Shown here piece by piece: positions 5,788 to 32,371 of a DNA stretch of 61,018 nt. How positions within the stretch are numbered: position 1 is the first letter of the stretch; the number at the start of each line of letters is the position of its first letter. The stretch covers positions 1 through 61,018 of the forward strand of contig JAJEFO010000039.1 in assembly GCA_022820365.1 (NCBI GenBank), read 5' to 3'. Source of the DNA: Silicimonas sp. GTDB taxonomy: Bacteria; Pseudomonadota; Alphaproteobacteria; Rhodobacterales; Rhodobacteraceae. A program made the translations under genes and the position numbers. Below the pieces are notes generated by a model. That model had not been told where the DNA came from. It did no database searches and worked only from the letters and a program-made list of their open reading frames with translations.

Positions 5788-5900
5788 AGAGCAGACCATA
5801 TATTTCGCGTGGTCAGGAGCCCGGGATTGAGGCACATTCTGCATCGGGCGAAATTGAAGTTCGGCAGGGCGAGTTGAACAACGAGAGTTGCTGTACGCCA

Positions 5901-6821
5901 ATGCGAGATGGCCTGCCACGCGAAGGGCGGGACGTGGTGCCAGAGTCCGGAACTGACCGGCGTGCCATGCATGCTTGCCGCGCAATTCCCGGCGGTGACG
6001 CACTTCTTGGCACTGACCGGCCATTGATTCCCGTAGACGAAGAGGGCCCGGTTCGACGCAAGCGGGTGTCCGGGTTTCGCATGATGGAAACTGCAGTCAC
6101 GAACGAGATGTTTGCAGCATTCGTCGAGGAATCCGGGCTTGACACCGAGGCCGAACGGTTTGGCTGGTCCTTCGTGTTCCACCAAGACGTTGCGGCATCC
6201 GTCACCGAGGCACAGGCCGTGCTTGGCCATGAATGGTGGCGCAGGATAGATGGCGCCTCATGGCGTTCGATCAACGGCCCTGGCTCGGAAGAGGCCTGGC
6301 GCCCAGATCATCCCGTAGTTCATGTGTCCTGGAACGATGCGCGAGCCTACGCGAAGTGGGCGGGCGGACGCCTCCCCACCGAAATCGAATGGGAGCATGC
6401 AGCACGAGGCGGATTGGGCGACGTGCCGTTTCCATGGGGCGACGAGGAACCCGACGATTCCAGCTTCTTCCCCTGCAACATTTGGCAGGGCGAATTTCCT
6501 GTCGAAAATGCCTGCGGCGACGGATACGCAACCACTGCGCCGGCTAAGTCCTTCGCGTCGAACGGCTACGGTCTCTACAACTTGTGCGGCAACGTGTGGG
6601 AATGGACGTCAGACCCGTTCAAGCTCCGCTCGTTGTCGAAGCGGGCAAAGGCCCATCATGCCAATCAGCCAAGGTCCAAGGTCCTGAAGGGCGGCTCTTT
6701 CCTGTGTCACAAGAGCTACTGCTTCCGCTATCGCATTGCGGCACGAACCGGAACGACGGCCGACACGACTACTTCGCATCAGGGATTCAGGCTGGTCTTC
6801 GACGAGAGACAGCATGGATGA
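5901..6821 (+). CDS. Formylglycine-generating enzyme (SUMF1/FGE family)
   Basis: FGE oxidises a cysteine in type I sulfatases to formylglycine, using O2 and a copper site held by two cysteines. This protein has the full FGE-sulfatase domain: IPGGDALLGTD near the start, MMETAVTNEMF, the W/G-rich PVVHVSWNDARAYAKWAGGRLPTE stretch, GNVWEW, and the C-terminal GGSFLCHKSYCFRYR. Both active-site cysteines (Cys269 and Cys274 with this start) are present in the same spacing as in human SUMF1, so it is a genuine FGE and not one of the many catalytically inert family members. I start at ATG 5901; a TTG at 5874 would add nine residues. No sulfatase gene lies in the window. Confidence 0.88.
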   Translation: MRDGLPREGRDVVPESGTDRRAMHACRAIPGGDALLGTDRPLIPVDEEGPVRRKRVSGFRMMETAVTNEMFAAFVEESGLDTEAERFGWSFVFHQDVAASVTEAQAVLGHEWWRRIDGASWRSINGPGSEEAWRPDHPVVHVSWNDARAYAKWAGGRLPTEIEWEHAARGGLGDVPFPWGDEEPDDSSFFPCNIWQGEFPVENACGDGYATTAPAKSFASNGYGLYNLCGNVWEWTSDPFKLRSLSKRAKAHHANQPRSKVLKGGSFLCHKSYCFRYRIAARTGTTADTTTSHQGFRLVFDERQHG

Positions 6822-7121: not shown

Positions 7122-7439
7122 CTATGGGCAAGCACTTGATCCTGCCCGCTCTTTTTGAAACCGGCGCTCAGGCATGGGGGGAACCGGTAATATCCCGTAA
7201 AATCGGTTCCAGTACAGCCATTGGCGAGGAGAAAATACTCCGCTCGGCGCGGCTTCCAGCGCCTGCCTTATCCGCTCGTCGCCGACAACACGACGCGTCG
7301 TTTGAATGTCGGACAGGGTGCCACGACTCAGCACATGCGTCAGAAAGCCTCTCTCATCCGCCGTCGCGTCTGCAGGCGTCTTGAACCATACAACCCGCTG
7401 CGCCACATGGCGCAAGGCATCCATTTCGGAAGGGGTCAC
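7122..7439 (-). CDS. Small partner protein of an AbiEii-type nucleotidyltransferase (antitoxin-like)
   Basis: A 105-residue protein whose start overlaps the stop of the upstream nucleotidyltransferase gene (ATGA on the minus strand), so the pair is co-translated. It resembles the short helical proteins that accompany AbiEii/DUF1814 nucleotidyltransferases (DUF6922-like pattern: a VLSRGTLSDIQ segment, VGDERIRQAL, then SPRQWLYWNRFYGI and a PPMPERRF tail). I infer an antitoxin or accessory role from the pairing; the family match is from memory and moderate in strength. Confidence 0.6.
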   Translation of the reverse strand: MTPSEMDALRHVAQRVVWFKTPADATADERGFLTHVLSRGTLSDIQTTRRVVGDERIRQALEAAPSGVFSPRQWLYWNRFYGILPVPPMPERRFQKERAGSSACP

Positions 7440-8131
7440 GACTTGATCTCCGGTTCTCGGTCACGCTTCCGCAGCCGCCGCGCCAGTCGGTCGAGGTCAA
7501 CCGACGCCACATCACGCTCGAGATCACGTTTCAACTGGTCAGGCAGGAAACGCACATCGCCATCTTCAAAGTAGCCAAGAGCCTGCAAAGATGGAAGCGG
7601 AGCAAATCGATCTCCATAGGCTTCATGGGCATCCGCCAGCAAGTCTTCCAGGGACATGCCAGCCTGGTGCAGCATGGCATGAAGGTCTAGGTAGTCCTTT
7701 TTCTCAGCACGCTGCTGGACCACCGTCAATTTGGTGACGGCAAGGTCACGCAAGGACGCAACCCTTAGACCGGTATCTTCCGTCAACTCCGCACTTTCCA
7801 AGCACGGGAAATCGACCGGCTTGAAAAAGGACAACTGCACCGGCGCGTTTCTACGGTAGACTCGGCAACCAAGAGAGTGCGGCTCGATCTGGTAGGCCTC
7901 CGCATCACGCAGGTAGGGCACGGATGACAACAACTCCTGCGGTGAGAACGGCAGTCTTGTAAAGAAATCGAAATCGGCTGACTTTCGGTGTCCCAACCGC
8001 AAGGCAATGGCCGTGCCGCCGTACAAGACGAATGAATCCGGCGTTTCCGACAGTTCTGACCACAACGACAACTGCGCTTCAGCCAGCACATCGAGGCGAG
8101 GCACGAAACGGGGGTGACGCGGCATTGTCAT
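7436..8131 (-). CDS. AbiEii/AbiGii-family nucleotidyltransferase (toxin-like)
   Basis: A 231-residue protein of the AbiEii nucleotidyltransferase toxin family (type IV-like toxin-antitoxin and phage-defence modules). Key motifs are visible: FVLYGGTAIALRLGHR followed by KSADFDFF, the GG(T)A and [ST]xDxD nucleotide/metal-binding pattern, and the later VQQRAEKKDYLDLHAML helix containing the family Lys/Asp signature. The active-site Asp pair is intact. In classical AbiE operons the antitoxin (AbiEi) precedes the toxin; here the nucleotidyltransferase comes first and the small partner second. Two in-frame ATGs (8131 and 8125) are possible. Confidence 0.82.
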   Translation of the reverse strand: MTMPRHPRFVPRLDVLAEAQLSLWSELSETPDSFVLYGGTAIALRLGHRKSADFDFFTRLPFSPQELLSSVPYLRDAEAYQIEPHSLGCRVYRRNAPVQLSFFKPVDFPCLESAELTEDTGLRVASLRDLAVTKLTVVQQRAEKKDYLDLHAMLHQAGMSLEDLLADAHEAYGDRFAPLPSLQALGYFEDGDVRFLPDQLKRDLERDVASVDLDRLARRLRKRDREPEIKS

Positions 8132-8484: not shown

Positions 8485-10323
8485 CTATAGTGCGCCCTCG
8501 GCACGCAGCTTCTCGTACTTGCCCTGATCCCACCACCAGTAGTTGATGCCCCTGTTGTATGGCGGCTTGATCTCTGGTCGCCCGAACACGTCCCAATAGG
8601 CAACCCAGTGCGACCCCTTGTACCAGTTCGGCACCCAGATCATGCGGTCGCGCAGAACCCTGTCGAGCGCCATGACGCGCACCTCCATCTCGGCGCGAGT
8701 TTCAGCACCGATGATCTCGTCGATCAAGGCGTCGACAACGGGGTCGGCCAGTCCGGTCAGGTTGAACGTTCCCGGCGTATTGGCGCTTTCGCTTGAAAAC
8801 AGGATCTTCAATTCAAGCGACGGGCTCAGCGGCAAGATGAATCGGGCGACGTAAATGTCATATTCGAAGTCTTCCTGCCTCTGTTCAAGTTCCGCACTGT
8901 CGATCAGCTCAAATCTGGCATCGATGCCGAGAAGCTTCAGGTTTTCCGCGAAAGGCAGGACAATGCGCTCGAAGGCCGGCCCGTCATCGATGAACTCGAT
9001 GCTCAGCACCTCGCCATCGGCATTGCGTCGCATACCGTCATCGCCGATGGTCCACCCTGCCTCTTCGAGTAGAGCATTTGCCGCCCGAACAAGCCGACGG
9101 TCCGTCTTGCTCGTTGTGCTGACAGGCGGCACGAAGGCCGGTTCGGTGAAGACGGTCTCCGGCAACTGATTGCGGTAGGGTTCGAGCACGGCGAGTTCCT
9201 CACCTTCCAGCATCCCCTCGGCCTGCATTGGCGCATTTTCCCAGAAACTGTCGAGCCGAGCATAGGATCCGTAGAAAAGCGTTTCGTTCGACCATTCGAA
9301 GTTGAACATCATCCCGATGGCTTCGCGCACTCTCCGGTCCTGGAACTTAGGAAGCCGCATGTTGAACCAGAAGCCCTGCGCGCCGGACGGCCGGCCGTCA
9401 TCAAGCACCTCGCGCTTCACCCAGCCCTTATCCAGCGCCGGAAAGTCATAGGCTGTTGCCCAAAGGGCCGAGAAGAACTCTTCGTGAAACAGGTAGACGC
9501 CTGCCTTCAGCGCCTCGAACGCTGCAGTGTTGTCCGCAAAATACTCGTAACGGAAGCAGTCGAAATTGTACGCGCCGACGTTCACGGGCATTTCGGCTGC
9601 CCAATAGTCGGGATTGCGGCAGTAGACGATCTGGCGACCTGCATCGACCTTGTCGACAATGTAAGGTCCTGAACCGAGAGGTGGCTCCAGCGTCGATCGC
9701 GTGAAGTCAACGGTCTGATAGTAGTGTTCCGGAAGCACGGGCATCTGGCCAACCTCGGAAATCAGGTCCCGCGTCGCGACGCCCTCGGCGAACTCGAATC
9801 GAACCTCGCGTTCAGAAAGTGCCTCGACATTTGCCACGTCCTCAAGCGCAATCCTGTAGTTCGGGCTGCCGTCGGTCTTTAGCGTCCTGATCGTCCAGAC
9901 AACGTCCGACGCCGTCACCGGCTCTCCGTCCGCGAAGGTTGCGTGGTCACGCAATGTGAACACGACCCACGACCGGTCCTCGGGGTATTCCAGCCTTTCG
10001 GCGAGCAAGCCGTAGACCGCGTCGGCCTCGTCATAGGCCCGATCCAAGAGCGAGTCATAGATCAGTCCAAGGCCCTGCGCCGGTTCGCCAGCGAGGATGA
10101 ATTGGTTCAGGCTGTCGAAGGTCTGGCTTGCCAGGAAGCCCCGAAAGCTCATCGTGCCCCCTTTGGGCGCATCCGGGTTCACGTAATCGAAATACGGGAA
10201 ATCCGGAGGGTACTTGAGTTCGCCAAAGGTCGAAATACCATGGCTCGTGATCGTGTCCTGATGGCTTTCGGCAAATGCCGCGCCTGTCAGGCCGAGAAAC
10301 ATGCAGAATATGGCTGCCCGCAT
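8485..10323 (-). CDS. YejA-like extracellular peptide-binding protein (SBP family 5)
   Basis: A 612-residue periplasmic solute-binding protein of ABC transporters. The start at 10323 gives a clean Sec signal peptide (MRAAIFCMFLGLTGAAFA, cleavage before ES). The mature N-terminus HGISTFGELKYPPDFPYFDY and the following NPDAPKGG are hallmarks of the YejA/microcin C-type subgroup of oligopeptide-binding proteins. The C-terminus ends in the WY-rich YNRGINYWWWD region typical of the group. Longer in-frame extensions upstream run into the divergent gene and are not coding. No yejBEF permease or ATPase genes are adjacent, so this is an orphan binding protein. It is divergent from the reductive dehalogenase gene. 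Confidence 0.9.
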   Translation of the reverse strand: MRAAIFCMFLGLTGAAFAESHQDTITSHGISTFGELKYPPDFPYFDYVNPDAPKGGTMSFRGFLASQTFDSLNQFILAGEPAQGLGLIYDSLLDRAYDEADAVYGLLAERLEYPEDRSWVVFTLRDHATFADGEPVTASDVVWTIRTLKTDGSPNYRIALEDVANVEALSEREVRFEFAEGVATRDLISEVGQMPVLPEHYYQTVDFTRSTLEPPLGSGPYIVDKVDAGRQIVYCRNPDYWAAEMPVNVGAYNFDCFRYEYFADNTAAFEALKAGVYLFHEEFFSALWATAYDFPALDKGWVKREVLDDGRPSGAQGFWFNMRLPKFQDRRVREAIGMMFNFEWSNETLFYGSYARLDSFWENAPMQAEGMLEGEELAVLEPYRNQLPETVFTEPAFVPPVSTTSKTDRRLVRAANALLEEAGWTIGDDGMRRNADGEVLSIEFIDDGPAFERIVLPFAENLKLLGIDARFELIDSAELEQRQEDFEYDIYVARFILPLSPSLELKILFSSESANTPGTFNLTGLADPVVDALIDEIIGAETRAEMEVRVMALDRVLRDRMIWVPNWYKGSHWVAYWDVFGRPEIKPPYNRGINYWWWDQGKYEKLRAEGAL

Positions 10324-10341
10324 TGGAAGCTCCCTTGCGAA

Positions 10342-10381
10342 TCGGTCCTGCGACCGACTTGCCCGCCTTGCGGCAGCCGCA
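10342..10381. promoter_or_regulatory. Two palindromes between yejA-like and rdhA genes
   Basis: The short divergent intergenic region contains two perfect inverted repeats: TCGGTC-ctgc-GACCGA at 10342-10357 and TGCGG-cag-CCGCA at 10369-10381. The first is close to the yejA-like ATG. They are candidate operator sites or hairpins; no regulator gene is adjacent. Confidence 0.35.
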
Positions 10382-10452
10382 TCCGATTGTCGACTGCGGC
10401 GGGCACATCGGCCACTTGTGCAATTCAATACATGCGGATTAGCTTCGCGACA

Positions 10453-13400
10453 ATGACCCGCTTGTTCACAGACAGTAACCGTCCTGTTCATCTCGGCCCC
10501 TATCCGCTGGAGCGCCTTCGCAGATCCAGAACGGCGGATGTTGCGGGCCTGCCTCGTCCCAAGCCGCTGGCCTTCCGGAAGCCCGACGCGCCGGATTGCA
10601 TCGTGAACGCAATGGCGGAGTACCAGGCGATGATGGACGCGATCAGGGACGGCCTCGTCAACAAGGCTGTTGCCGAGTGTCCGGCCGACCCGACAGAACG
10701 GGCTCGTCACCTCAAGTCCTTCGGGTACTTTTCGGACGCCGCGATGGTCGGAGTCTGCCGCCTGCCCGACGACGCCCTTCTGGAAGAGCCATGGAGGAAC
10801 CCTGACATTGACCGGTTGGCCAATGACCTGAAGACGCGCCAGACAAAGACGCTTGCAAGCGGGATCGACATGATCATGGCGGACCTGAAGGAGTCGATGG
10901 ATGCCCCGCCGTCCACCATTGGCGGACACACCCATGCTGCAGTCTTCCTCAATGCGCGGCCGCGACCGATCCGGGACGACGAGCCAGGAACGGAGTGGCT
11001 TGAGGGAGCCGAAGACTATGCCGCCTGCCTCCGTGCATCGGAAACTGCGGTCATCCTGGCAAACTACATTCGCCTTCTCGGCCATGACGCCAAGGCGCAC
11101 AGCGCAACCTCCTCGGACGTCGACCTGAACAGGCTGGCTGTCGAAGCCGGGCTTGCGATCGCAAGGCAAGGCGTTCTGCGCAATCCGTTCCTCGGTGACA
11201 GGTTCGGTCTTGCGGCGCTGACCACCACTTTCGAGATGACGCCCGACCTGCCGCTTGCGGCAAAGCAGCCGTTGATCGGCACACGTGGCCCTGCATGGTG
11301 GTCTGGCTACCGAACCGCAAAAAACGCATTCAACAAGGACCCTTTCAGGCGCCGCAACTACGTTGACGGCCCGCACCCGTTTGAAACCCTGAAGCGCGTG
11401 GACGATCCCACGACCTTCATCGACGAGCCGCGCGTGCCCCGCGTGCCGAAACGAACCGACATGTTTGCGCGCGCCCAGTTCGGCGACATGGGCAAGGCTG
11501 TGCAGGACGGCGCAAGGAACGGGCATTACGCCCGGAAGGCACCGACGGCAATGGCGCAAAGACGCATGCTCGGGGCCTTCGTGCTGTTGCAGGACGGTGC
11601 GTCCGAAGCGGGCAATCGCCCGTCGGTCGCAGAACGCAACGCCGCGAACGTGAAGGCGGCGAGCTACTTCCTGGGCGTCGATGCGGTCGGGATCAGCCGC
11701 TGTCCCGAATGGACATGGTACAGCCACGACGCGACCGGCGTACCCATCGACCCGCCGCACGATCAGGCGATCAGCATGATCATTGACCAGGGCTACGAGA
11801 CAATGGAGGGGGCCAGCGGCGACGACTGGATCAGCGTCGCGCAGTCCATGCGCGCCTATCTCAGGTTTTCCCTTCTGGGAGGCGTCATTGCGAAGCACAT
11901 CAGGAGCCTTGGCTACGGGGCAAAGGCGCATACGGTCCTTGATGGCGAGGTCGTCCAGCCACCGCTCCTGCTGCTGTCGGGCCTTGGCGAGGTCAGCCGC
12001 ATCGGGGAAGTGATTCTGAATCCCTTCCTCGGGCCCCGCCTCAAATCGGGTGTCGTGACCACGGACATGCCGCTCGCACATGACAAGCCAATTGACTTCG
12101 GTCTCCAGGCATTTTGCGAGGCGTGCAACAAGTGCGCGCGGGAATGTCCGTCAGGCGCGATCACGGCGGGTCCGAAACTGATGTTCAACGGATACGAGAT
12201 CTGGAAGTCCGACAGCCAGAAATGCGCAACCTACCGCATCACGACACCCGGCGGCGCCATGTGCGGCAGATGCATGAAGACCTGCCCGTGGAATCTTGAA
12301 GGACTGTTTGCCGAGAAGCCCTTTCGCTGGGCAGCCATGAATGTGCCGGCGCTTGCCCCCGCCCTTGCGCGCCTTGATGACCGCCTGGGCAACGGCGGTC
12401 TTAACCCGGTCAAGAAGTGGTGGTGGGATATCGGGATCGAGGAAGACGGCGGCTACCGGCCGGCACGCGAGGCGGTGAACGCCCGCGACCTGCAGCGGGA
12501 GCTTGACCTGAAATACGAGGACCAGACGCTGGCCGTCTATCCGGCACATCTCACGCCGCCGCCCTGGCCATACCCCTTTCCAATGGACCGCGAATCCGGG
12601 ATCGAGGCCTACGAAGCCATGCTGACGCCAGAGGCATACAAGGCGCGTCTCGAGCGCGGGGACACCGAGGGTCTCGCGCACGAAGTTCTTGACCATGCAG
12701 ACAGTCCGGTCCTGAAGATGGTCGTGTCGAAGGTCAATCCACGCGGCGGCGGCATAACGATCTATGAGTTCCGCGACCCCGACGGCCGCGACCTGCCGGA
12801 ATGGACGGCCGGCGCGCATCTGGACATCGTCGTGGCACCGGAGTTTCTTCGGCAATATTCAATGTCTGGCAACCCGCAAGACCGTTCGGTTTACCAGATC
12901 GGCGTCCTGCGGGACGGCGGCGGGCGCGGCGGCTCGACGCTGCTGCATCGCATTTTCACGGCAGGTCGCCGGGTCTTCCTGTCGAAGCCGATCAATCACT
13001 TCCCTTTGGAGGAAGGCGCCGCACGGACGCTTCTCATGGGCGGCGGAATTGGGGTCACGCCAATGGTGGCCATGGGGCATCGCTTGCATGACCTCGGCCG
13101 CGACTTCACGCTTCATTATTCGGTGCCGTCGCGTGACAAGGCCGCCTATCTCGATGACCTCCTTGCCATGCCCTGGGCGGAGCATGTCACGCTGCACGTC
13201 TCCGACGAAGGCAGCCGGGCGGACCTGCTGTCAATACTCGGGCCGTACTCGGTCGGCACCCACGTCTACACATGCGGCCCGGACCGCTACATGTCCGCCG
13301 TCATTGAGGCGGCCGAACGACAGGGCTTCCCGGATGAAGCTCGCCATCTCGAGTACTTTTCGGTTCCCGAGGTTCCAGAATACGAAAACCACCCGTTCAC

Positions 13401-13656
13401 GCTGAAGCTCATCCGATCCGAAATCACGCTTGAAGTGCCTGCAGACAAGAGCGCGACCGATGTCCTGACCGAACACGGCGTTGCTATTGACGTGAAGTGT
13501 TCGGACGGGCTTTGCGGCGTCTGCAAGTGCGGCTTGGTCGCAGGCGAGGTCGAGCACCGCGACTTCGTGCTCTCGGCTGCGCAGCGCAAGGACTCCATCA
13601 TTCTCTGCCAGTCTCGCGCCGCCGAGCCGGATGGCGCCATAGAGGTGGACATCTGA
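10453..13656 (+). CDS. Cytosolic reductive dehalogenase fused to flavin/[2Fe-2S] reductase (BhbA-type)
   Basis: A 1067-residue multi-domain enzyme. Residues 1 to about 680 form a cobalamin-dependent reductive dehalogenase core with two 4Fe-4S motifs: C555/C558/C561/C565 and C604/C607/C611 (extra Cys591). Tyr423 (WTWYSH) and Lys491 (GYGAKAH) lie in the regions where NpRdhA has its catalytic Tyr and Lys; exact equivalence needs an alignment. Residues about 750-980 are a ferredoxin-NADP-reductase-like domain with RQYSMSG (800-806, flavin) and GGGIGVTPM (863-871, NAD(P)). The C-terminus is a plant-type [2Fe-2S] ferredoxin (C1016, C1021, C1024, C1052). There is no Tat signal and no RdhB anchor, matching the aerobic catabolic class (BhbA, acting on dibromo-hydroxybenzoate). 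ATG 10453 is preferred over ATG 10432, seven codons upstream. Confidence 0.9.
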   Translation: MTRLFTDSNRPVHLGPYPLERLRRSRTADVAGLPRPKPLAFRKPDAPDCIVNAMAEYQAMMDAIRDGLVNKAVAECPADPTERARHLKSFGYFSDAAMVGVCRLPDDALLEEPWRNPDIDRLANDLKTRQTKTLASGIDMIMADLKESMDAPPSTIGGHTHAAVFLNARPRPIRDDEPGTEWLEGAEDYAACLRASETAVILANYIRLLGHDAKAHSATSSDVDLNRLAVEAGLAIARQGVLRNPFLGDRFGLAALTTTFEMTPDLPLAAKQPLIGTRGPAWWSGYRTAKNAFNKDPFRRRNYVDGPHPFETLKRVDDPTTFIDEPRVPRVPKRTDMFARAQFGDMGKAVQDGARNGHYARKAPTAMAQRRMLGAFVLLQDGASEAGNRPSVAERNAANVKAASYFLGVDAVGISRCPEWTWYSHDATGVPIDPPHDQAISMIIDQGYETMEGASGDDWISVAQSMRAYLRFSLLGGVIAKHIRSLGYGAKAHTVLDGEVVQPPLLLLSGLGEVSRIGEVILNPFLGPRLKSGVVTTDMPLAHDKPIDFGLQAFCEACNKCARECPSGAITAGPKLMFNGYEIWKSDSQKCATYRITTPGGAMCGRCMKTCPWNLEGLFAEKPFRWAAMNVPALAPALARLDDRLGNGGLNPVKKWWWDIGIEEDGGYRPAREAVNARDLQRELDLKYEDQTLAVYPAHLTPPPWPYPFPMDRESGIEAYEAMLTPEAYKARLERGDTEGLAHEVLDHADSPVLKMVVSKVNPRGGGITIYEFRDPDGRDLPEWTAGAHLDIVVAPEFLRQYSMSGNPQDRSVYQIGVLRDGGGRGGSTLLHRIFTAGRRVFLSKPINHFPLEEGAARTLLMGGGIGVTPMVAMGHRLHDLGRDFTLHYSVPSRDKAAYLDDLLAMPWAEHVTLHVSDEGSRADLLSILGPYSVGTHVYTCGPDRYMSAVIEAAERQGFPDEARHLEYFSVPEVPEYENHPFTLKLIRSEITLEVPADKSATDVLTEHGVAIDVKCSDGLCGVCKCGLVAGEVEHRDFVLSAAQRKDSIILCQSRAAEPDGAIEVDI

Positions 13657-13795: not shown

Positions 13796-14218
13796 TCAAC
13801 CGACCAATTCGAGCCCCGAAAAGAAATACGCGATCTCGACCGCAGCGGTTTCAGGCGCATCCGAACCATGCACAGAGTTCTCGCCCACGCTCTCGGCAAA
13901 TTCCGCGCGTATCGTGCCAGGGTCGGCGTCAGCCGGGTTGGTCGCTCCCATGACATCGCGATTCCTGGCTATGGCGTTCTCTCCTTCGAGCACTTGCACC
14001 ACGACCGGATCCGAAGCCATGAACCCGCAGAGCTCGTCATAGAAGGGCCTCTCGGCATGCACTTCGTAGAACTTGCCTGCCTGCGCCTTGGTGAGGTGGA
14101 TGCGCTTCTGAGCGATAATCCGCAGCCCGGCTTCCTCGAACTTTGCGTTGATCTTGCCAGTCAGGTTTCGCTTGGTCGCATCGGGCTTGATGATGGACAA
14201 TGTGCGTTCGATCGCCAT
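13796..14218 (-). CDS. ndk: Nucleoside diphosphate kinase
   Basis: Ndk balances NDP and NTP pools through a phosphohistidine intermediate. The 140-residue protein is standard length and starts [18 protein letters not shown]. The catalytic His lies in the canonical [16 protein letters not shown] motif (NxxHGSD) near residue 117. It is transcribed toward the reductive dehalogenase gene, ending 139 bases from that gene's stop; the two genes are convergent. Confidence 0.98.
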
Positions 14219-16634: not shown

Positions 16635-18074
16635 TCAATAGAGCCGCAGGTATTCCTTGACTTCCCAGTCAGTGACCGCCTGGTGATAGCGTTCCCATTC
16701 ATCAGCCTTGTATTCGAGGTAGGACTTGAGCATGACCTTGCCCAAGACGTGTTCGGCCGTCTTGTCTTGGCTCAGTGCCTCCATTGCATGGAACAGCGTG
16801 CGCGGCAGGCGCCGGACTCCCAAGTCGGCCAACTCGGCCTCGGTCTTCGCGTAAAGGTCGAAGTCGGTCGGATCGCCGGGGTCGATCTTGTTCTCGATCC
16901 CTTGCACCATGCAGGCCAAGTGCATCGCCATCGCCAGATAGACATTCATTGTCATGTCACAGGCGCGGTTCTCAATGCAGAATCGATTTTGCGGAAGCCT
17001 AAGCTGTGCCGAGCGGTTGTTGAAACCGTAGGCGATGTTGGTCGGGGCCCAAGTCACGGTTCCGCCCTCGAATCCGCCGACACGAGGGACCAGGCCGTTA
17101 TAGGAATTCACTGTCGGGCACGTGATCCCGGTGATCGCTTCTGCATGCTGCAACACCCCGCCCACGGCCCAGCGACTTTCGTCGCTCCAGTCGCCGTCCG
17201 CGGTCTTGAAAATGTTCTCGCCCGGCCGGCTCTCATGACTGATCGACACGTTGATGTGCGCACCCGACCGCCAATCGCCAAGGGTGGGCTTCGGCATGAA
17301 GGTCACGAACAGGCCATGTGTCTTCGCCACCTCCTTGAGCAGGATGCGCAGAAACACAAAGCGGTCAGACATTTCCAGCATGTTGGTATAGTGAAAGTCG
17401 AGTTCGAACTGCGAATAGCCACCCTCGCAGACAACGTCATGCAGCTTCCAGCCGAGCCCCTCAAGGTAATCGATCATGTCCTTGAGGAAAGGCATCGAAT
17501 CGATCGAGTACTCGATGTCATAGCCAAATGCTTGGCGACGCGGGCGCACGCCGCCTGCCGGGTCGTCATCAAAGGCTTTGACCGGCAGGCCGTTCTCGTC
17601 ATGCTTCATGACGATGAACTCCGGCTCTACGCCAGCGTGAAAGCGATACCCCTTCAGGGCTGCCTCTTGCATCATGCGTCTCAGCGCCTGTCGGGGGCAG
17701 ACGTTGTAAGGTGCATCCTCCCAGTAGAGATCGGAAATGATGATTGCCATCGACCTGTCCCACGGACAGATGTAGACGGCGTCGAGGTCCGGAACCACCA
17801 ACTGATCGCTGTCGGCGGGAGTGAGTTCGGGCACATACGAGACCGAATGCACGGCAAATTGAGGCCCCTCGCCCAAGCACAGCGCCTCGAGTTCTCTCAT
17901 CGGCACCGGTTTCGTCTTGGGAACGCCGTGCATGTCGATCCAGGCACCCATTACGTACTTGACGCCTGCCTCCTCCAGGCGCTTCCTGACTTCGGGAATC
18001 CTCGGCCGGTTTCGCTCGACCGCTTCACCAAAGCTCTCGTAGTATATTCTGTCGTTCGCCTTTGCCTCGGGCAT
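16635..18074 (-). CDS. glnT: Type III glutamine-synthetase-like ligase (GlnT/GmaS group)
   Basis: A 479-residue ATP-dependent ligase of the glutamine synthetase superfamily. Motifs include GVEPEFIV and QFELDF (metal-binding glutamates), SGAHINVSIS (metal/glutamate site), and NNRSAQLRLP followed by ENRACDMTMN (ATP/glutamate site). The GlnT group includes type III glutamine synthetases of rhizobia and gamma-glutamylmethylamide synthetase (GmaS), which joins glutamate to methylamine. Its location downstream of GlxB/C/D-type genes matches both. The start at 18074 has an AGGAG ribosome binding site; an earlier ATG six codons upstream lacks one. Sequence alone does not decide ammonia versus amine as substrate. 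Confidence 0.88.
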   Translation of the reverse strand: MPEAKANDRIYYESFGEAVERNRPRIPEVRKRLEEAGVKYVMGAWIDMHGVPKTKPVPMRELEALCLGEGPQFAVHSVSYVPELTPADSDQLVVPDLDAVYICPWDRSMAIIISDLYWEDAPYNVCPRQALRRMMQEAALKGYRFHAGVEPEFIVMKHDENGLPVKAFDDDPAGGVRPRRQAFGYDIEYSIDSMPFLKDMIDYLEGLGWKLHDVVCEGGYSQFELDFHYTNMLEMSDRFVFLRILLKEVAKTHGLFVTFMPKPTLGDWRSGAHINVSISHESRPGENIFKTADGDWSDESRWAVGGVLQHAEAITGITCPTVNSYNGLVPRVGGFEGGTVTWAPTNIAYGFNNRSAQLRLPQNRFCIENRACDMTMNVYLAMAMHLACMVQGIENKIDPGDPTDFDLYAKTEAELADLGVRRLPRTLFHAMEALSQDKTAEHVLGKVMLKSYLEYKADEWERYHQAVTDWEVKEYLRLY

Positions 18075-18624
18075 TTGACTTCTCCTGTCCATGTTTCGCC
18101 GCGCACACCGTCAGTTCGGATCGCGGCATCGCTGGTATGCGGGCGGTTCCGCGCCGCCGGTCGTCAGAGTCCGGCCATGTGATCTGCGCCGTCCCGTTTC
18201 GCAAATTCCGGTGTCGCTGCAAGGTCCAGAAACATCAGGTTGGACACCTTGAATCCGGGCGATGCCTGCAAAGTTCTGCCGGTCGCTGAGCCAGGCGGAA
18301 TTGAGGATGCTGTTCCCGTCCGTCTTGTGCGAATTGCAGCTGGGTGATCGGGCTGATCCCTCGAATGCGGGGAACGTCACCGAAGGCGCAGACGCGACTC
18401 ATGCCACCGTGGTCCACGCAGCTCCTGCCTGCATGGAATTCATCGAGCCCGCTGCAGGTCAGAAATCGGGACGTGATGTCGTTGCCGGCCTTGATGCCGC
18501 CACACATCCACCTGCCGACTGGCCCGGCCACGAAACTCCCGACGCAGGCGGCAACCCTTACCGGCACCCTGCTGCATTCACGGATCATGTTCTGTTCGTG
18601 CTGCTTCCAACCGTGGCGCATGGG
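18075..18624. other. Intergenic region (550 bp) within the catabolic block
   Basis: Unusually long gap between the glyoxalase-like gene and the glutamine-synthetase-like gene. Open frames on either strand show no domains. It may contain a separate promoter for glnT. I see no transposon ends or strong terminators. Confidence 0.4.
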
Positions 18625-19068
18625 TCAGGACCCTTCCTTGGCAAGGTGTTTCAGGATGGACTCGTTGAGTTCGACCTTGTAGCCATCCGGATCCTCGCAA
18701 AATGCGATCACGCGCGTGCCGCCCTTCATGGGTCCGGGAGGACGGGTAATGTTGACTCCAGCCGCCGCCAGTACTTCGCACGCCTTGTAGACATCCGGGG
18801 TCTCGATGCAGATGTGGCCCCAGCCGTTGCCCTTTTCGTATGGCTCCTCCTGCTCCCAGTTCGCTGTCAGTTCCAGCGTCGGAGACTCCGCCTCAGGGCC
18901 GTAGCCGATGAATGTGTTGGTGAACTTGCCCTCGGGATAGTCGGTGCGGCGCAAGACCGTCATGCCCAGAATGCCGCAATAGAACCGCAGCGACTTGTCC
19001 ATGTCCATCACGCGCATCATCGTATGCGCCAGGCGAAAGCCGCGTGAAATGTCGGGAGTGTCTGTCAT
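18625..19068 (-). CDS. VOC-family lactoylglutathione lyase-like protein (glyoxalase I)
   Basis: A 147-residue single-module glyoxalase I-like protein. The four expected metal ligands are visible in order: His in RLAHTMMRV, Glu in TLELTANW, His in GWGHICIET and Glu in YKVELNES. That matches GloA, which isomerises the glutathione-methylglyoxal hemithioacetal; other VOC enzymes share the fold. The start at 19068 has an AAGGAAA ribosome binding site, and 16 bases separate it from the Rieske gene stop, so the two are co-transcribed. In this context it could detoxify an aldehyde or dicarbonyl by-product. Confidence 0.87.
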   Translation of the reverse strand: MTDTPDISRGFRLAHTMMRVMDMDKSLRFYCGILGMTVLRRTDYPEGKFTNTFIGYGPEAESPTLELTANWEQEEPYEKGNGWGHICIETPDVYKACEVLAAAGVNITRPPGPMKGGTRVIAFCEDPDGYKVELNESILKHLAKEGS

Positions 19069-19084
19069 ATGGAGTTTCCTTTGG

Positions 19085-20197
19085 TCAGTTGCTGCTGCGG
19101 CCAATCAGGTCACGAGCCACGAGGGACTGAAAGGCGTGGACGCTGTCTTCCCAGACTGGGGACAAGACACCCCCGGTGTCGGAAACAGTTGATGCCCGGC
19201 CCGCCTGCAATCGTTCGACCATTTCATGGTCTTCCTTGTGGACATCCCACCAGAGTCTCTTCAAGTCCTCCACCTCGCTTGCCCTCAACTGCTTGCCACT
19301 TGTCGTGTACAGCCCGCGCTTCTGGTTCATTGTGCCTGGGCCGGTCGGAATGTTGAGGTAGACTCCCAATTGATCCGGAAAATACCGGCCGAGGATGAAA
19401 TTCGGATAGAGCGCCAGGTAGCGCGAGCTGACGGCCAGACTGCCCGACGTGCCGACCTCTTCGCCGAGATCCACGGCACTGCCCATGCAGTTGCCGTCAA
19501 TGATCGTGTAGTGATCGGACAAGGGCTGGTCAGTGGTCGAGCTGTGAACGAACTGCACATGATAGGGTTCGATGAAGTTCTCCATGATGAACTTCCAGTT
19601 CGTCGAGATCTCCCCGAAATCCAATATGCCGATGCAATCGACATTCTCCCAGTCGACCCCCTCAAGGCGCCTGATCAGCGACCCGGCATAGTCCTCGAAG
19701 TGCGGCGCCCCGCCGCCGACATTGACGAAGATCCAGTCCTGCCAGACATGGGTTCGCACGGGAACCAAGCCGCTGCGCGACTTGTCGAATCCATTGGCGT
19801 CATGCTGCCCGGTGCCACCAAAATGCGGCGAGGCCCTCAGCGTTCCATTCAGATCGTATGCCCAGGCATGGTAGGGACAGCGGATGAGCTTTCCGACATT
19901 TCCCGGCTTGTCGACCAGTGTCAGGCACCGGTGGCGGCAGACGTTGTGGAATGCCTTGATTTCGCCCTCGCCATTGCGGACCATGAGCAGCGGCTGGCCC
20001 GCCGCGGTTACAGGCACGACATCTCCGGGTTTCTTCAATTCATGTGCAAATCCGATACAGACCCAGTTCCGGGCAAACACGGACTGGCACTCGGCGTCCC
20101 AGAATTCCACGTCCCTGTAGGCCGCGGACGGCAGCCCGCGCCTGGGCTCGGATTTTTCGAGGAAGGGCTGCAGCAGGGATTGCATGTCGCTCGTCAT
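19085..20197 (-). CDS. Rieske non-heme iron oxygenase, alpha subunit
   Basis: A 370-residue ring-hydroxylating/demethylating oxygenase. The N-terminal Rieske [2Fe-2S] site is CRHRC (Cys87, His89) with CPYHAW (Cys107, His110). The catalytic mononuclear iron site is ENFIEPYHVQFVH: His213 and His218, with Glu210 at the position that bridges to the neighbouring Rieske domain, and a C-terminal Asp in WEDSVHAF. Glu at the bridge, instead of the usual Asp, is known from carnitine oxygenase CntA. No cognate reductase gene is adjacent. It sits between the GlxBCD genes and the glyoxalase-like gene, all in the same direction. Substrate unknown; a quaternary or N-methylated amine is my leading guess. Confidence 0.9.
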   Translation of the reverse strand: MTSDMQSLLQPFLEKSEPRRGLPSAAYRDVEFWDAECQSVFARNWVCIGFAHELKKPGDVVPVTAAGQPLLMVRNGEGEIKAFHNVCRHRCLTLVDKPGNVGKLIRCPYHAWAYDLNGTLRASPHFGGTGQHDANGFDKSRSGLVPVRTHVWQDWIFVNVGGGAPHFEDYAGSLIRRLEGVDWENVDCIGILDFGEISTNWKFIMENFIEPYHVQFVHSSTTDQPLSDHYTIIDGNCMGSAVDLGEEVGTSGSLAVSSRYLALYPNFILGRYFPDQLGVYLNIPTGPGTMNQKRGLYTTSGKQLRASEVEDLKRLWWDVHKEDHEMVERLQAGRASTVSDTGGVLSPVWEDSVHAFQSLVARDLIGRSSN

Positions 20198-20531
20198 TCT
20201 TCTGACCGTCTACGTGTTTCAGGTTCGACCTCTGTCGGATCTCCGATCGGCATTGCGCGTCTTGCTTGTCGACAGTGAACTTCGCGATTAATGCACTGTC
20301 CAGAGTATTCTTATATTTTTCGCAAGAAATTTTCACGAAATCGTAAAATTTATGTAGTTCTTGACCTTATTTTGAATAATTCGAAGCCACTCTTCATTCT
20401 AGATCGCTTCAATCCATGACGATTCCTCCGCGCTTCGCCCTAGCCGCTGCCAATCGAAGCGACGAATCCCGGGGCGGGCTTCGTGCCGGTCAGGAAAACG
20501 CGCCTTTCCACGTCGTACTGAAACAACCGGA
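20198..20531 (-). promoter_or_regulatory. AT-rich promoter/operator region upstream of the Rieske gene
   Basis: A 334-bp gap with a strikingly AT-rich core (about 20300-20400) in a high-GC region. It contains two adjacent imperfect operators: TTTC-gcaa-GAAA (20318-20329) and TTTC-ac-GAAA (20331-20340), followed by ACGA-aa-TCGT overlapping the second. This suggests regulated transcription of the Rieske-GloA segment separate from the glx genes. Confidence 0.45.
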
Positions 20532-21869
20532 CTAGAATCCGCTCTTTCCCGGGTACCAGTCGGTTCCTGCCAACGGCACCTTGGCCATCGCTGCAGCTTC
20601 CAGGGTAAGCGCACAGAGGTCTTCGGCCTCAAAATTGCGCAGGTGATTATGGCCGCAAGCCCGCGCTATCGTTTGCGCCTCGAGCGTCATGACCTTGAGA
20701 TAGTTGCGAAGCCGCCGCCCGGCCTCCACCGGGTCCAGCCTGGCAGCCAGATCGGGATCCTGCGTGGTAATGCCCGCCGGGTCCCGCCCTTCATGCCAGT
20801 CGTCATATGCGCCCGAGGTGGAACCCAGCTCCTGGTACTCGGCTTCCCACTTCGGGTCATTGTCCCCCATGGCGATGAGTGCGGCGGTGCCGATAGCGAC
20901 CGCATCCGCACCGAGCGCCAGTGCCTTTGCCACATCGGCCCCGCTACGGATTCCGCCCGATATCACCAACTGTACTTCGCGATGCACGTCCAGGTCCTGA
21001 AGAGCCTGCACGGCAGGACGGATGCATGCCAGCGTGGGCAAGCCCACGTGTTCAATGAACACGTCCTGCGTGGCCGCAGTGCCGCCCTGCATGCCGTCCA
21101 TGACCACGACGTCGGCCCCGGCCTTCACTGCCAGGGCAGTGTCGTAATAGGGTCGCGTCGCGCCGACCTTTACGTAGATCGGCACCCGCCAGTCCGTGAT
21201 CTCGCGCAGTTCAAGAATCTTGATCTCGAGGTCGTCCGGCCCCGTCCAGTCAGGGTGGCGGCATGCTGAGCGCTGGTCGATCCACTTGGGCAACGTTCGC
21301 ATCTCAGCCACGCGGTCGGAAATCTTCTGACCCAGCAGCATTCCGCCACCGCCGGGCTTGGCACCCTGACCTACAACGACCTCGATGGCATCTGCCTGGC
21401 GCAGATCGTCGGGGTTCATGCCGTAGCGCGAAGGCAAGTACTGATAGACCAGCTTCGATGAATGCCGCCGCTCTTCGGGCGTCATGCCGCCATCGCCCGT
21501 CGTGGTTGACGTGCCTGCAGCCGATGCTCCGCGTCCAAGTGCCTCCTTTGCAGGCCCTGACAGTGCACCGAAACTCATGCCTGCGATGGTGATCGGGATA
21601 TCCAGTTCGATCGGGTTCCTGGCAAAGCGAGTGCCCAGCGTCACCGAGGTGTCGCAGCGCTCACGATACCCTTCGAGCGGATACCGCGACACCGAGGCTC
21701 CAAGAAACAGCAGGTCGTCGAAATGCGGCACGCGGCGCTTGGCGCCGCCGCCTCGGATGTCGTAAATTCCGGTGGCGGCGGCGCGGCGAATTTCGGCATT
21801 GACCTCTTTGGTGAACGTCGCCGACTGGATCGGCAGGGTGCGCGGAATCGCGTTTTCTTTGTCCTTCAT
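20532..21869 (-). CDS. glxD: GlxD/MgsC-like FMN-binding glutamate synthase-family protein
   Basis: A 445-residue homologue of the FMN/synthase domain of glutamate synthase GltB. Visible are the GAKPGGGGMLLGQK loop (169-182), the substrate-strand DVVVMDGMQGGTAATQ (253-268) and the FMN phosphate-binding SGGIRSGADVAKALALGADAVAIG (304-327). The equivalent of the GltB iron-sulfur loop (about 332-371) contains no cysteine. In N-methylglutamate synthase (MgsABC) and the rhizobial Glx proteins the glutamate synthase is split into three subunits exactly as here. The start at 21869 is ten bases after the GlxC stop. Confidence 0.87.
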   Translation of the reverse strand: MKDKENAIPRTLPIQSATFTKEVNAEIRRAAATGIYDIRGGGAKRRVPHFDDLLFLGASVSRYPLEGYRERCDTSVTLGTRFARNPIELDIPITIAGMSFGALSGPAKEALGRGASAAGTSTTTGDGGMTPEERRHSSKLVYQYLPSRYGMNPDDLRQADAIEVVVGQGAKPGGGGMLLGQKISDRVAEMRTLPKWIDQRSACRHPDWTGPDDLEIKILELREITDWRVPIYVKVGATRPYYDTALAVKAGADVVVMDGMQGGTAATQDVFIEHVGLPTLACIRPAVQALQDLDVHREVQLVISGGIRSGADVAKALALGADAVAIGTAALIAMGDNDPKWEAEYQELGSTSGAYDDWHEGRDPAGITTQDPDLAARLDPVEAGRRLRNYLKVMTLEAQTIARACGHNHLRNFEAEDLCALTLEAAAMAKVPLAGTDWYPGKSGF

Positions 21870-21879
21870 GCCCAATTCC

Positions 21880-22563
21880 CTAGTAGTCAGCGACGTTGTC
21901 GACATCGAAATTGTAGAGCTTGCGAGCCGAGCCGTAGCGCCTGAACTCCTCGGGCCTGGCATGCAAGTCCGCCCGATCAAGCAAGCCCTTGAGGATGTCG
22001 ACATGCTCCGGCCGCATCTCCTTTTCCACGCAGTCCGCGCCAAGGCTCTTGACCGAGCCGCGCACGAAGAGCCGCGCCTCGTAGATCGAGTCGCCCAATG
22101 CATCACCCGCATCACCGCACACGACGAGATTGCCGGCCTGCGCCATGAAGGCCGACATGTGCCCGACATTGCCATGCACCACGATGTCGATTCCCTTCAT
22201 CGATATGCCGCAGCGCGAGGAGGCGTTGCCCTTGATCACCAACAGCCCTCCATGACCCGTGGCACCCGCATACTGGCTGGCATCACCCTCGACCACCACG
22301 GATCCCGACATCATGTTTTCTGCAACTCCGGGGCCTGCCGAACCTTCGACCGTGATGGTCGCCCCTTGGTTCATCCCTGCACAATAGTACCCGGTCGAGC
22401 CCTTGACGATGACTTCCAGCGGCGCATCCAACCCCACGGCAATCGCATGGCTGCCCCTTGGGTTCACGACTTCCCAGCTAGTCTGGTTGGTTTCCTCGTC
22501 CTGCGCATGCAGAATGGAATTCAGCCCCCGAAGGCCCTTTTCGGCGAGATCATATGTCTGCAT
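21880..22563 (-). CDS. glxC: GlxC/MgsB-like GXGXG-motif subunit
   Basis: A 227-residue protein corresponding to the C-terminal beta-helix (GXGXG) domain of glutamate synthase. It has the repeated glycine pattern, for example GSAGPGVAENMMSGSVVVEG, GATGHGGLLVIKG and GNVGHMSAFMAQAGNLVVCG. It has no catalytic residues; in GltB this domain holds the synthase and amidotransferase halves together. The start at 22563 follows directly after the glxB stop (22565), so the genes are coupled. Longer ATG choices would overlap glxB. Confidence 0.88.
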   Translation of the reverse strand: MQTYDLAEKGLRGLNSILHAQDEETNQTSWEVVNPRGSHAIAVGLDAPLEVIVKGSTGYYCAGMNQGATITVEGSAGPGVAENMMSGSVVVEGDASQYAGATGHGGLLVIKGNASSRCGISMKGIDIVVHGNVGHMSAFMAQAGNLVVCGDAGDALGDSIYEARLFVRGSVKSLGADCVEKEMRPEHVDILKGLLDRADLHARPEEFRRYGSARKLYNFDVDNVADY

Positions 22564-22564
22564 C

Positions 22565-23461
22565 TCAATGGCTCCAGAAATAGACGGTCGCTGGTTCAGG
22601 CTCCCAGACGCTTGCATCTTCAATTCCCGGAAGGCTCACCAGCGCCCGGTACTCGCTGCCAAAGGCCACGTACTGGCTTGTCTCACCCATCACGGCCGGT
22701 TTGCAGGCGATGGGGTCGCGCAACACGCCAAAGCCATCCTTCGTACCGACGACAAACGTGAAGAAACCGTCGAGATCCTCGAGCGAGCTGTCCAGCGCCT
22801 CGCCGAGCGACGCGCCATTCTGCATCTTCCAGGTCAGGTATGCGGCTCCGACTTCGGTATCGTTCATCGACTCTATCCGGGCGCCCTTGCGCATGAGCTT
22901 GCGACGCAGGTCGTTATGGTTCGAGAGTGAACCGTTGTGCACCAGGCACTGGTCCGCCCCGGTGGAATACGGGTGCGCCCCTTCTGTCGTCACTGCGGAT
23001 TCGGTGGCCATTCGGGTATGTCCGATGCCATGCGTGCCTTCCATCCGGGACAGATCGAAACGGTCGGCAACGTCCTTGGGCAGCCCTACTTCCTTGTAGA
23101 TCTCGATGACTTCACCGTCGGACATCACCCTTATGCCTGGACGCAATTCGCGAACCGCCTTCCGTGCGGCATGCACCTTTGCTGCTGCCAATTCCAGGAC
23201 CGCATGCGTGTCGACGCGACGAATGCCGACCTCCGTGCCTATGGCCTGTCCTAGTTCCGGTGCCAGGTCGCCTAGATCCTGATCAGGCTGGTCCGACTGC
23301 ACTGTCAGTTTCGCCTTGCCGCGCTTGCCCCTGCCGTAGATCGCAATGCCAGCACTGTCCGGTCCCCGGTCCGACATGGTTGTCAGCATCTGCGTCAACA
23401 TCTCGCCCAGTTTCGGCTCGAGCTCCTTGTCCTTGAGGAACAGACCTACAATCCCGCACAT
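22565..23461 (-). CDS. glxB: GlxB/MgsA-like class II glutamine amidotransferase
   Basis: A 298-residue Ntn-type glutaminase that releases ammonia from glutamine. The start at 23461 gives MCGIVGLF, placing the nucleophile Cys2 immediately after the initiator Met as the family requires; an ATG 8 codons upstream would bury it. Other class II signatures are GIGHTRMATES and the VHNGSLSNHNDLR segment. It is the first gene of the glxBCD set and lies 163 bases downstream of the XRE-cupin regulator gene. Confidence 0.92.
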   Translation of the reverse strand: MCGIVGLFLKDKELEPKLGEMLTQMLTTMSDRGPDSAGIAIYGRGKRGKAKLTVQSDQPDQDLGDLAPELGQAIGTEVGIRRVDTHAVLELAAAKVHAARKAVRELRPGIRVMSDGEVIEIYKEVGLPKDVADRFDLSRMEGTHGIGHTRMATESAVTTEGAHPYSTGADQCLVHNGSLSNHNDLRRKLMRKGARIESMNDTEVGAAYLTWKMQNGASLGEALDSSLEDLDGFFTFVVGTKDGFGVLRDPIACKPAVMGETSQYVAFGSEYRALVSLPGIEDASVWEPEPATVYFWSH

Positions 23462-23528
23462 GGATCGAATCCCTTCTTGGCCCAACAGTGCAAGTCTAGC
23501 GAATCTCGTGCCGAGGCACTACCTGTGA

Positions 23529-23541
23529 GAAACTTTTTTTC
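23529..23541. promoter_or_regulatory. A/T-tract inverted repeat upstream of glxB
   Basis: In the 163-bp glxB leader region the sequence GAAA-ctttt-TTTC forms an A/T-rich inverted repeat. It is a possible operator for the neighbouring XRE-cupin regulator and resembles, in composition only, the repeats upstream of the Rieske gene. Confidence 0.25.
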
Positions 23542-23624
23542 CCGATACGAACCTTCGGCAAATCAGTCGAGATGCCAGCCAGCCAGAGTCTCAAGCAATG
23601 GCCGGCAGCCTGGATCCGGCTATT

Positions 23625-24254
23625 TCAGCGAGACTGCCGATAGGATATCACGGACAGATACCTTGCCGGAAGCTTGACCAGAACCTCGGGGCCATGCGGC
23701 GAGTCCGCGTCGAAAAACAGGGTATCTCCGGGCTTCAGGGAGTAGATCCTGTCTCCGTGGCGATAATCGACTTCGCCTTCCAGCATGTACAGCATCTCGA
23801 TTCCGTCGTGCTGGAAGGTCGGGAACACGTCCGACTGTTCAGCCAACGTGATCAGGTACGGCTCGACCACGACCCCGCTGGTGTTGTGTCCAAGATGACC
23901 GAGCAAGTTGTACTGGTGCCCTGCCCGAGTTCCCGCCCTCTTTGTCTCGACGCCGCTGCCGGATCGAGTCAGGACAGCCTCTCGAGCGTCATCGAAGCCC
24001 GTGAACAGTGAGCTGAGAGGAACATTCAGCACGTTTGCAAGGCCTTGCAGCGTGGTGAGTGACGGAGAGATCCTGCCGTTTTCGATCTTTGAGAGCATTC
24101 CCGCTGACAGACCGGTGGAGGACGCCAGTTCAGATGCGGTCATGCCCCGTTGATGACGAAATGCGCGCACTTCGCGCCCGATGGCCCGCTCGAGATTCCT
24201 GTCGACACCTTGCCGAACCCTGTGCGGATCCTGTGACAGTTCAGGTTGTCTCAC
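23625..24254 (-). CDS. XRE-family regulator with C-terminal cupin domain
   Basis: A one-component regulator: an N-terminal Cro/C1-type helix-turn-helix (VRAFRHQRGMTASELASSTG..AGMLSKIENGRISPSLTTL) followed by a cupin sensor domain (HDGIEMLYMLEGEVDYRHGD and PGDTLFFDADSPHG). This architecture (PuuR/SutR-like) commonly controls amine, polyamine or amino-acid catabolism. I chose GTG at 24254; a TTG at 24314 would extend the frame by 20 residues but lacks support. It sits immediately upstream of glxBCD on the same strand and is the natural candidate regulator for that operon. Confidence 0.88.
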   Translation of the reverse strand: MRQPELSQDPHRVRQGVDRNLERAIGREVRAFRHQRGMTASELASSTGLSAGMLSKIENGRISPSLTTLQGLANVLNVPLSSLFTGFDDAREAVLTRSGSGVETKRAGTRAGHQYNLLGHLGHNTSGVVVEPYLITLAEQSDVFPTFQHDGIEMLYMLEGEVDYRHGDRIYSLKPGDTLFFDADSPHGPEVLVKLPARYLSVISYRQSR

Positions 24255-24278
24255 GGTGCGCTCGCTCGGCTGCTGGTC

Positions 24279-24298
24279 GTTGTCATTTGTCCGACAAC
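24279..24298. promoter_or_regulatory. Inverted repeat upstream of the XRE-cupin regulator
   Basis: GTTGTC-N8-GACAAC, perfect 6-base arms, 25 bases upstream of the GTG chosen as start of the regulator gene. Position and symmetry fit an autoregulatory operator. If the TTG at 24314 were the true start, this repeat would be inside the coding region. Confidence 0.35.
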
Positions 24299-24314
24299 AC
24301 GCGGCTTGGAGCAA

Positions 24315-24674
24315 CCCTCATCTCATGACAGGAGCGTGCAGCGGCGACACGGGTCGCTGTGAGTTGTCACAGGAACCAAATGCCATATCCTGCATCTTCA
24401 AGCGCTCAGGTCGCCAGGCCCAGCCAGTGCGTGGGCGCGGCCTTGCACCGGTCATCCACTCCAGGTACCTCCATTGCTTCTGCCAAGATTGCAATGTCAT
24501 TTTGGCAGAGTGATCCAATTGACGCACATGATCTCATCCGAGGTCAGGACGACCGAACTTGCAGCGCCGCGGCATCCTCGAAACCAAACTCAGGCAGTCC
24601 GGACAATTGGCACACGCTGGACTGCCTGATCGGCACAATTCGACAGAATGCGGACTTGCTCCCGACACCCTCCC
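24315..24674. other. Intergenic region (360 bp)
   Basis: Between the end of the TRAP large permease gene and the regulator. No gene recognised on either strand; short frames lack ribosome binding sites. It would contain the regulator promoter. Confidence 0.4.
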
Positions 24675-27335: not shown

Positions 27336-27347
27336 CAGCGGTGATCC

Positions 27348-28340: not shown

Positions 28341-28473
28341 CGGCCTCCCTCCGACTGTCCCGTAGCGTGGCGCGCACCGGAACTCCCGCAGCCGAACGCG
28401 CTGCGCTGGAAAAAGCAGGAGCCGACGTTCCGCCAGCTCCTGCCTTGGCTATCAGCCAGTTCCGTTCAAGACC

Positions 28474-29562: not shown

Positions 29563-29760
29563 TGTTTGTCTTTCCTCCTGATGTGTCGTCCTAAAGTTGT
29601 CGAGACAGGAATGCCTGTCCGTGCAGGACGAGAAAGTAAAGAGAAAGCGAAGAGATGCAACCATTTCCTTTGCTGCAATCTCGGAAGGACAATGCGCGAT
29701 TCAACGTCCCGCTTTGGTCCTCTGAGAACCGGCGATGGCGATCGCCCTGCTTCGCGGCGC

Positions 29761-32247: not shown

Positions 32248-32371
32248 TTGGTCTGAACGCTACGGCCTTGCGCGTCGCCTGACAACACGGGAACAAACAT
32301 TGACGGGTCGCTAACGGCGGCACTATTCATTTCGGCAAACCGGCGTCTTGGGCGCTGCAAGGAACTGTTCG

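Follow-up and report, generated by a model that had tools for sequence, protein, structure and literature searches.

A 61,018-nucleotide stretch of DNA from Silicimonas sp. (hereafter the window) encodes a reductive dehalogenase that carries a reductase in the same chain. This raises the question of which class of dehalogenase the gene, rdhA, belongs to, and whether its residues, its neighbors or its kin point to a substrate other than those of the enzymes already characterized. The gene is a single open frame of 1067 amino acids with zero internal stops (Table 1). From the N- to the C-terminus, its product comprises two RdhA halves, the first vestigial and the second catalytic, followed by a module resembling phthalate dioxygenase reductase and a [2Fe-2S] domain.

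Table 1. Coordinates of rdhA, its domains and its flanking features in the window
Feature	Coordinates	Strand	Basis
rdhA, self-sufficient catabolic reductive dehalogenase (very probable assignment)	10453..13656	+	open frame, TIGR02486, phmmer
vestigial N-terminal RdhA half	10687..11256	+	second TIGR02486 match, 43.4 bits, below cut-off
catalytic cobalamin and 2x[4Fe-4S] core	11761..12393	+	TIGR02486, 165.5 bits
phthalate-dioxygenase-reductase-like flavin and NAD(P)H module	12745..13359	+	about residues 765-969; 2pia match
plant-type [2Fe-2S] domain	13414..13620	+	Pfam Fer2, residues 988-1056
divergent periplasmic peptide-type ABC substrate-binding protein	8485..10323	-	
ndk, nucleoside-diphosphate kinase, convergent housekeeping boundary	13796..14218	-	
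divergent intergenic region, 129 bp	10324..10452	.	

Each of these domains is identified by a profile or a structural relative. The whole protein scores 207.6 bits against NCBIfam TIGR02486 ('reductive dehalogenase'; cut-off 160.35), a family that also produced matches in 11 of 14 control genomes, none of them over the cut-off. In phmmer, the dehalogenase part matched NpRdhA (4ras) at 545 bits, and residues 765-1059 matched phthalate dioxygenase reductase (2pia) at 182 bits. Pfam placed a 4Fe-4S dicluster at residues 555-614. The first-pass annotation had recognized the dehalogenase core and the plant-type [2Fe-2S] domain, both of which our searches recover, the latter with four cysteines; its account of the core lacked the vestigial N-terminal half, and the flavin domain that it had called ferredoxin-NADP-reductase-like is instead of the phthalate-dioxygenase-reductase type. 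We take the RQYS and GGGIGVTP stretches of this module to be its flavin and nucleotide motifs. The flavin is expected, by analogy with JtRdhA, to be FMN.

The same architecture bears on whether the protein could be a respiratory enzyme. Within the first 120 residues we found no Tat signal, the only arginine pair being at positions 23-24, and the highest 19-residue hydropathy is 0.53 when the segment begins at one of the first 60 residues, compared with 1.28 over the entire protein. No membrane anchor RdhB is encoded by the flanking genes. We rejected a respiratory RdhA on these two grounds, the missing Tat signal and the missing RdhB-like neighbor, and a truncated catabolic RdhA of the NpRdhA type because the reductase domain is fused. 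That the protein is in truth a respiratory RdhA, or else an epoxyqueuosine reductase (QueG), is vanishingly improbable: there is a weak QueG match (21.4 bits, cut-off 200), but this reading is refuted by the fused reductase module, the lack of a Tat signal or hydrophobic N-terminus, and the TIGR02486 score. The profile search of the genome returned three TIGR02486 matches, two of them within the rdhA frame, and the third, on another contig and below the cut-off (C131, 24.7 bits), could be the genome's QueG. The BhbA-like class proposed at first reading, with neither Tat signal nor RdhB, thus stands, and the protein is 51% identical to BhbA of plasmid pBHB and 72% identical to a homologue in Ruegeria sp. 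TM1040. We conclude that the rdhA product very probably belongs to the BhbA/JtRdhA class of self-sufficient catabolic reductive dehalogenases, with the mechanism proposed below; its cytosolic location and its NAD(P)H-driven activity are predictions.

Upon alignment with NpRdhA, the catalytic residues S422, M423, Y426, K488 and R552 correspond to S465, M466, Y469, K531 and R595 in the rdhA protein, and F291 is kept as F338. All six are the same in every one of the 51 sequences aligned, a set of near relatives (at least 66% identity) composed of the rdhA protein and 50 of 80 homologue loci, themselves the best 80 of 237 in the scan. Y469 and K531 are the catalytic tyrosine and lysine whose loss the first-pass annotation had named as the sign of a wrong assignment, and both are retained. 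Equally invariant across this alignment are the eight cysteines of the two [4Fe-4S] clusters (C555, C558, C561, C565, C591, C604, C607 and C611) and the four of the [2Fe-2S] cluster (C1016, C1021, C1024 and C1052). Seven of the eight had been placed exactly at first reading, and C591 had been omitted. A second alignment, which includes BhbA and four other plasmid-borne homologues, keeps the same catalytic and cluster residues in 8 of 8 sequences.

The AlphaFold2 model of the protein, built from 51 sequences, is of moderate quality (mean pLDDT 74.4, pTM 0.65), and the stretches of the catalytic core that fall under a pLDDT of 50 include residues 496-524, 567-584 and 603-616. In Foldseek, NpRdhA chains fill the top 14 places (TM 0.83-0.86, normalized to target length), followed by the self-sufficient, reductase-fused P450s 6kbh and 6laa and by the reductase 2pia. 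The model supports the predicted architecture of the protein, not the geometry of its pocket.

The activity, cofactors, electron donor and substrate of the enzyme we infer by analogy with JtRdhA and NpRdhA. NAD(P)H would reduce the flavin of the phthalate-dioxygenase-reductase module, from which single electrons would pass to the [2Fe-2S] cluster, on to the two [4Fe-4S] clusters and finally to cob(II)alamin. In the active site, S465, K531 and R595 would hold the phenolic substrate, which would lose the halogen next to its hydroxyl, in the ortho position, with Y469 as the proton donor. The genome encodes CobN, the cobaltochelatase of the aerobic B12 route. The best prediction for the rdhA product is that it uses NAD(P)H to remove ortho bromine or iodine from phenols, with ortho-bromo- and iodophenols such as bromo-4-hydroxybenzoates as likelier substrates than their chlorinated counterparts.

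The dN/dS of rdhA lies between 0.04 and 0.14 in all seven pairs computed, with synonymous sites saturated in two of them (dS 3.5 for the pair with L007 and 2.5 for the pair with L008); purifying selection acts on rdhA, and the frame is not a chance one. A quick tree with 56 proteins, rooted only at the midpoint and with 17 of 53 inner branches drawn open, groups the rdhA protein with proteins from Silicimonas and Boseongicola MAGs (four rows, support 100), in line with the Rhodobacterales-type host that had been proposed from the sequence. BhbA and the OM-1 homologue stand apart from this group, and the intervening rows are mostly alphaproteobacterial. Three MAGs labeled Granulosicoccaceae (L034, L058 and L075; 67-69% identity) are scattered among the alphaproteobacterial rows, a placement that suggests either transfer between classes or a binning error, that is, mis-binned contigs. 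An association of the host with sponges is not claimed, as its basis was MAG names and a limited literature search settled nothing.

The gene is common in this group of bacteria. Counting the host's own genome, rdhA occurs in all 8 of the genus's genomes that were searched (two of which have it divided between two contigs) and, at E <= 1e-100, in 152 of the 394 family genomes searched. A strong match is present in 151 of 393 sampled genera. Most of the family matches listed are near full length, though a few cover only part of it, and one contains an in-frame TGA. This last copy, in relative G275 (contig C1:2007650-2009686), may be broken. A limited literature search found no published survey of rdhA across the family. 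In a collection of 72,556 plasmid records, 455 match the rdhA protein, only 8 of them over at least 80% of its length. The 52 other plasmid matches listed cover 28-34% of the length, starting from about residue 694, and involve mainly the reductase part.

We then turn to what the surroundings say about function. On its own strand, rdhA is the sole gene between the divergent binding-protein gene, whose product has an N-terminus that we take to resemble YejA (a microcin C/peptide importer), and the convergent ndk. The next gene scanned on the binding protein's strand (7436-8131) has no NCBIfam match and does not look like a permease. The 129-bp divergent intergenic region presumably holds the rdhA promoter; a sigma-70 scan found zero sites within it, at a chance level of detection (one site found against 1.0 expected, and three terminators against 4.0). 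The one tRNA found in the window is distant from rdhA. Across the homologue loci, the binding-protein gene adjoins rdhA in at least 8 of 80 and ndk in at least 5 of 80, counts that are lower bounds because several loci are short contigs, and all of these cases are among the nearest loci (L002-L009). When the genes around rdhA were clustered over the 80 homologue loci together with the window, shadow frames of rdhA itself made up the larger clusters, and the commonest cluster of true neighbors, an ABC-transporter ATPase within 10 kb in 25 of 81 loci, has no member in the window.

Because rdhA stands alone in this way, its neighbors name no substrate, and we rejected an assignment based on them, given that only the binding protein and ndk recur beside the gene and only in the nearest loci. 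The first-pass annotation had noted, rightly, that the neighbors are unlike the bhb operons. It had gone on to suggest a new substrate on that account, a step that does not follow, since rdhA stands alone, its context varies from one relative to another, and the class is widespread and includes the characterized JtRdhA. The enzyme class is already characterized and common in the host's family, and novelty of this rdhA is unsupported.

Elsewhere in the window, the minus-strand stretch 16635-29664 holds a run of glutamine-synthetase-like, glyoxalase and GbcA-like Rieske genes, of which the glyoxalase alone exceeds a curated cut-off, followed by genes that presumably encode parts of a glutamate synthase and a TRAP transporter. 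Together they may serve the catabolism of amines or betaines. At 31012-33424, we take the translations to show a cytochrome-P450-like frame on the minus strand divergent from an arylsulfotransferase-like frame on the plus strand. A frame of the formylglycine-generating/EgtB type at 5874-6821 (+) is below all curated cut-offs listed.

What becomes of the product is a separate question from what the enzyme does. We predict that the dehalogenated phenol serves as a carbon source via PobA and the 4,5-cleavage of protocatechuate (LigAB). The genome has two PobA matches and one LigA match over the cut-off, and a homogentisate dioxygenase, all on contigs other than that of rdhA. We rejected protocatechuate 3,4-dioxygenase as the downstream step, with zero matches over the cut-off in the genome (best 53.5 bits against 296.4). 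Alternatively, the same enzyme mechanism could serve detoxification, stripping bromine from bromophenolics whose product is left unassimilated. The isolation of rdhA outside any catabolic operon argues for this role, and its presence in every searched genome of the genus, together with the divergent neighbor shared by the nearest loci, would fit a protective function. The two PobA genes and LigA could, by contrast, use a 4-hydroxybenzoate product, and on two plasmids, Comamonas pBHB and Nitratireductor pOM-1, extradiol dioxygenase genes lie close to the homologue, accompanied on pOM-1 by pobA. Among the features listed for the Ruegeria, Jannaschia and Aminobacter plasmid records, whose gene tables are incomplete, there is no extradiol dioxygenase or pobA. 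On balance, we give detoxification an appreciable but minority chance and retain the catabolic assignment.

The pocket is where the protein departs from its characterized relatives. NpRdhA F290, F310, P311 and A419, whose pocket roles we take from the portion of PMC7565698 consulted, are replaced by M337, Y359, A360 and V462, so that the hydrophobic side of the pocket differs and the substrate preference may differ with it. M337, Y359 and V462 are fixed in all 51 near relatives (at least 66% identity), and at position 360, 36 of these sequences carry A, 14 carry V and one carries G. In place of M337, Y359 and V462, BhbA and the Nitratireductor sp. OM-1 homologue have F, S and S. One reading of this signature is that the M337/Y359/V462 group acts chiefly on a marine natural product rather than on halo-4-hydroxybenzoates. 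Its fixation and its difference from the residues of BhbA and the OM-1 homologue are consistent with such a shift, as is the report, in the same portion of PMC7565698, that A419 lines the second-halogen pocket of NpRdhA and that A419M moves preference towards mono-halogenated substrates. However, the 51 sequences are the nearest relatives only, a Jannaschia plasmid homologue 70% identical to the rdhA protein has L at 337, and JtRdhA works well on bromo- and dibromo-4-hydroxybenzoate, with the dibrominated form preferred (PMC10463259, in the sections consulted). We consider a distinct natural substrate unlikely, and bromo-4-hydroxybenzoates remain our preferred candidates. The signature itself is a modest new point, suggested by the alignment, and the possible substrate difference is the main point worth bench work.

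A broader idea, which we hold to be doubtful, is that reductive debromination in air by a single-chain enzyme belongs to the core traits of the genus and of a large part of the family, and that the M337/Y359/V462 pocket of the near relatives is tuned to a marine bromophenolic, unlike the herbicide-derived substrate of BhbA. Taken alone, rdhA is an ordinary member of a characterized class, and its frequency across the family has some value: if the enzymes are active, the family would be a sizeable aerobic debrominating guild. The pocket residues offer a simple substrate test.

Set beside known systems, the C-terminal part of the protein resembles 2pia in its flavin, NAD(P)H and [2Fe-2S] module, except that 2pia is a separate protein without a dehalogenase part. 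NpRdhA of Nitratireductor pacificus (4ras, 6zxu, 6zxx, 6zy0 and 6zy1), the best fold match of the model at 38-40% identity, has the same duplicated core and aligns in phmmer to residues 3-107 and 158-735, with only a few residues where the rdhA protein has about 108-157. Unlike the rdhA protein, NpRdhA as solved has neither a fused reductase nor a [2Fe-2S] domain, and the sections consulted of PMC10463259 describe NpRdhA as naturally truncated. BhbA of Comamonas sp. 7D-2 shares the single-chain architecture over its full length and all catalytic and cluster residues tested; its gene differs in being carried by a plasmid that is typed as conjugative, with ligA and a gene for an extradiol dioxygenase close by.

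Two further comparisons are with enzymes of marine bacteria. Ros_A3X954 of Roseobacter sp. MED193 is, in the part of PMC13101508 consulted, a marine alphaproteobacterial debrominase that, like the rdhA protein, has no Tat signal; its cluster motifs at 283-294 and 337-345 indicate a shorter protein, apparently of another lineage, and it lost activity on exposure to oxygen, so that oxygen tolerance of the rdhA enzyme cannot be assumed. JtRdhA (WP_104007082), from the marine bacterium Jhaorihella thermophila and characterized in 2023, is by the description in PMC10463259, as far as consulted, like the rdhA protein in its duplicated RdhA core, two [4Fe-4S] clusters, FMN, [2Fe-2S] cluster and lack of a Tat signal, and it keeps Y426, K488 and R552 as the rdhA protein does. 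According to the same sections, JtRdhA removes bromine and iodine in air, consuming one NADPH per product, and chlorinated analogues only inhibit it. Set beside this description, the rdhA product is probably a near relative of JtRdhA, and by analogy we predict that it, too, would debrominate and deiodinate in air, with chlorinated analogues only inhibiting.
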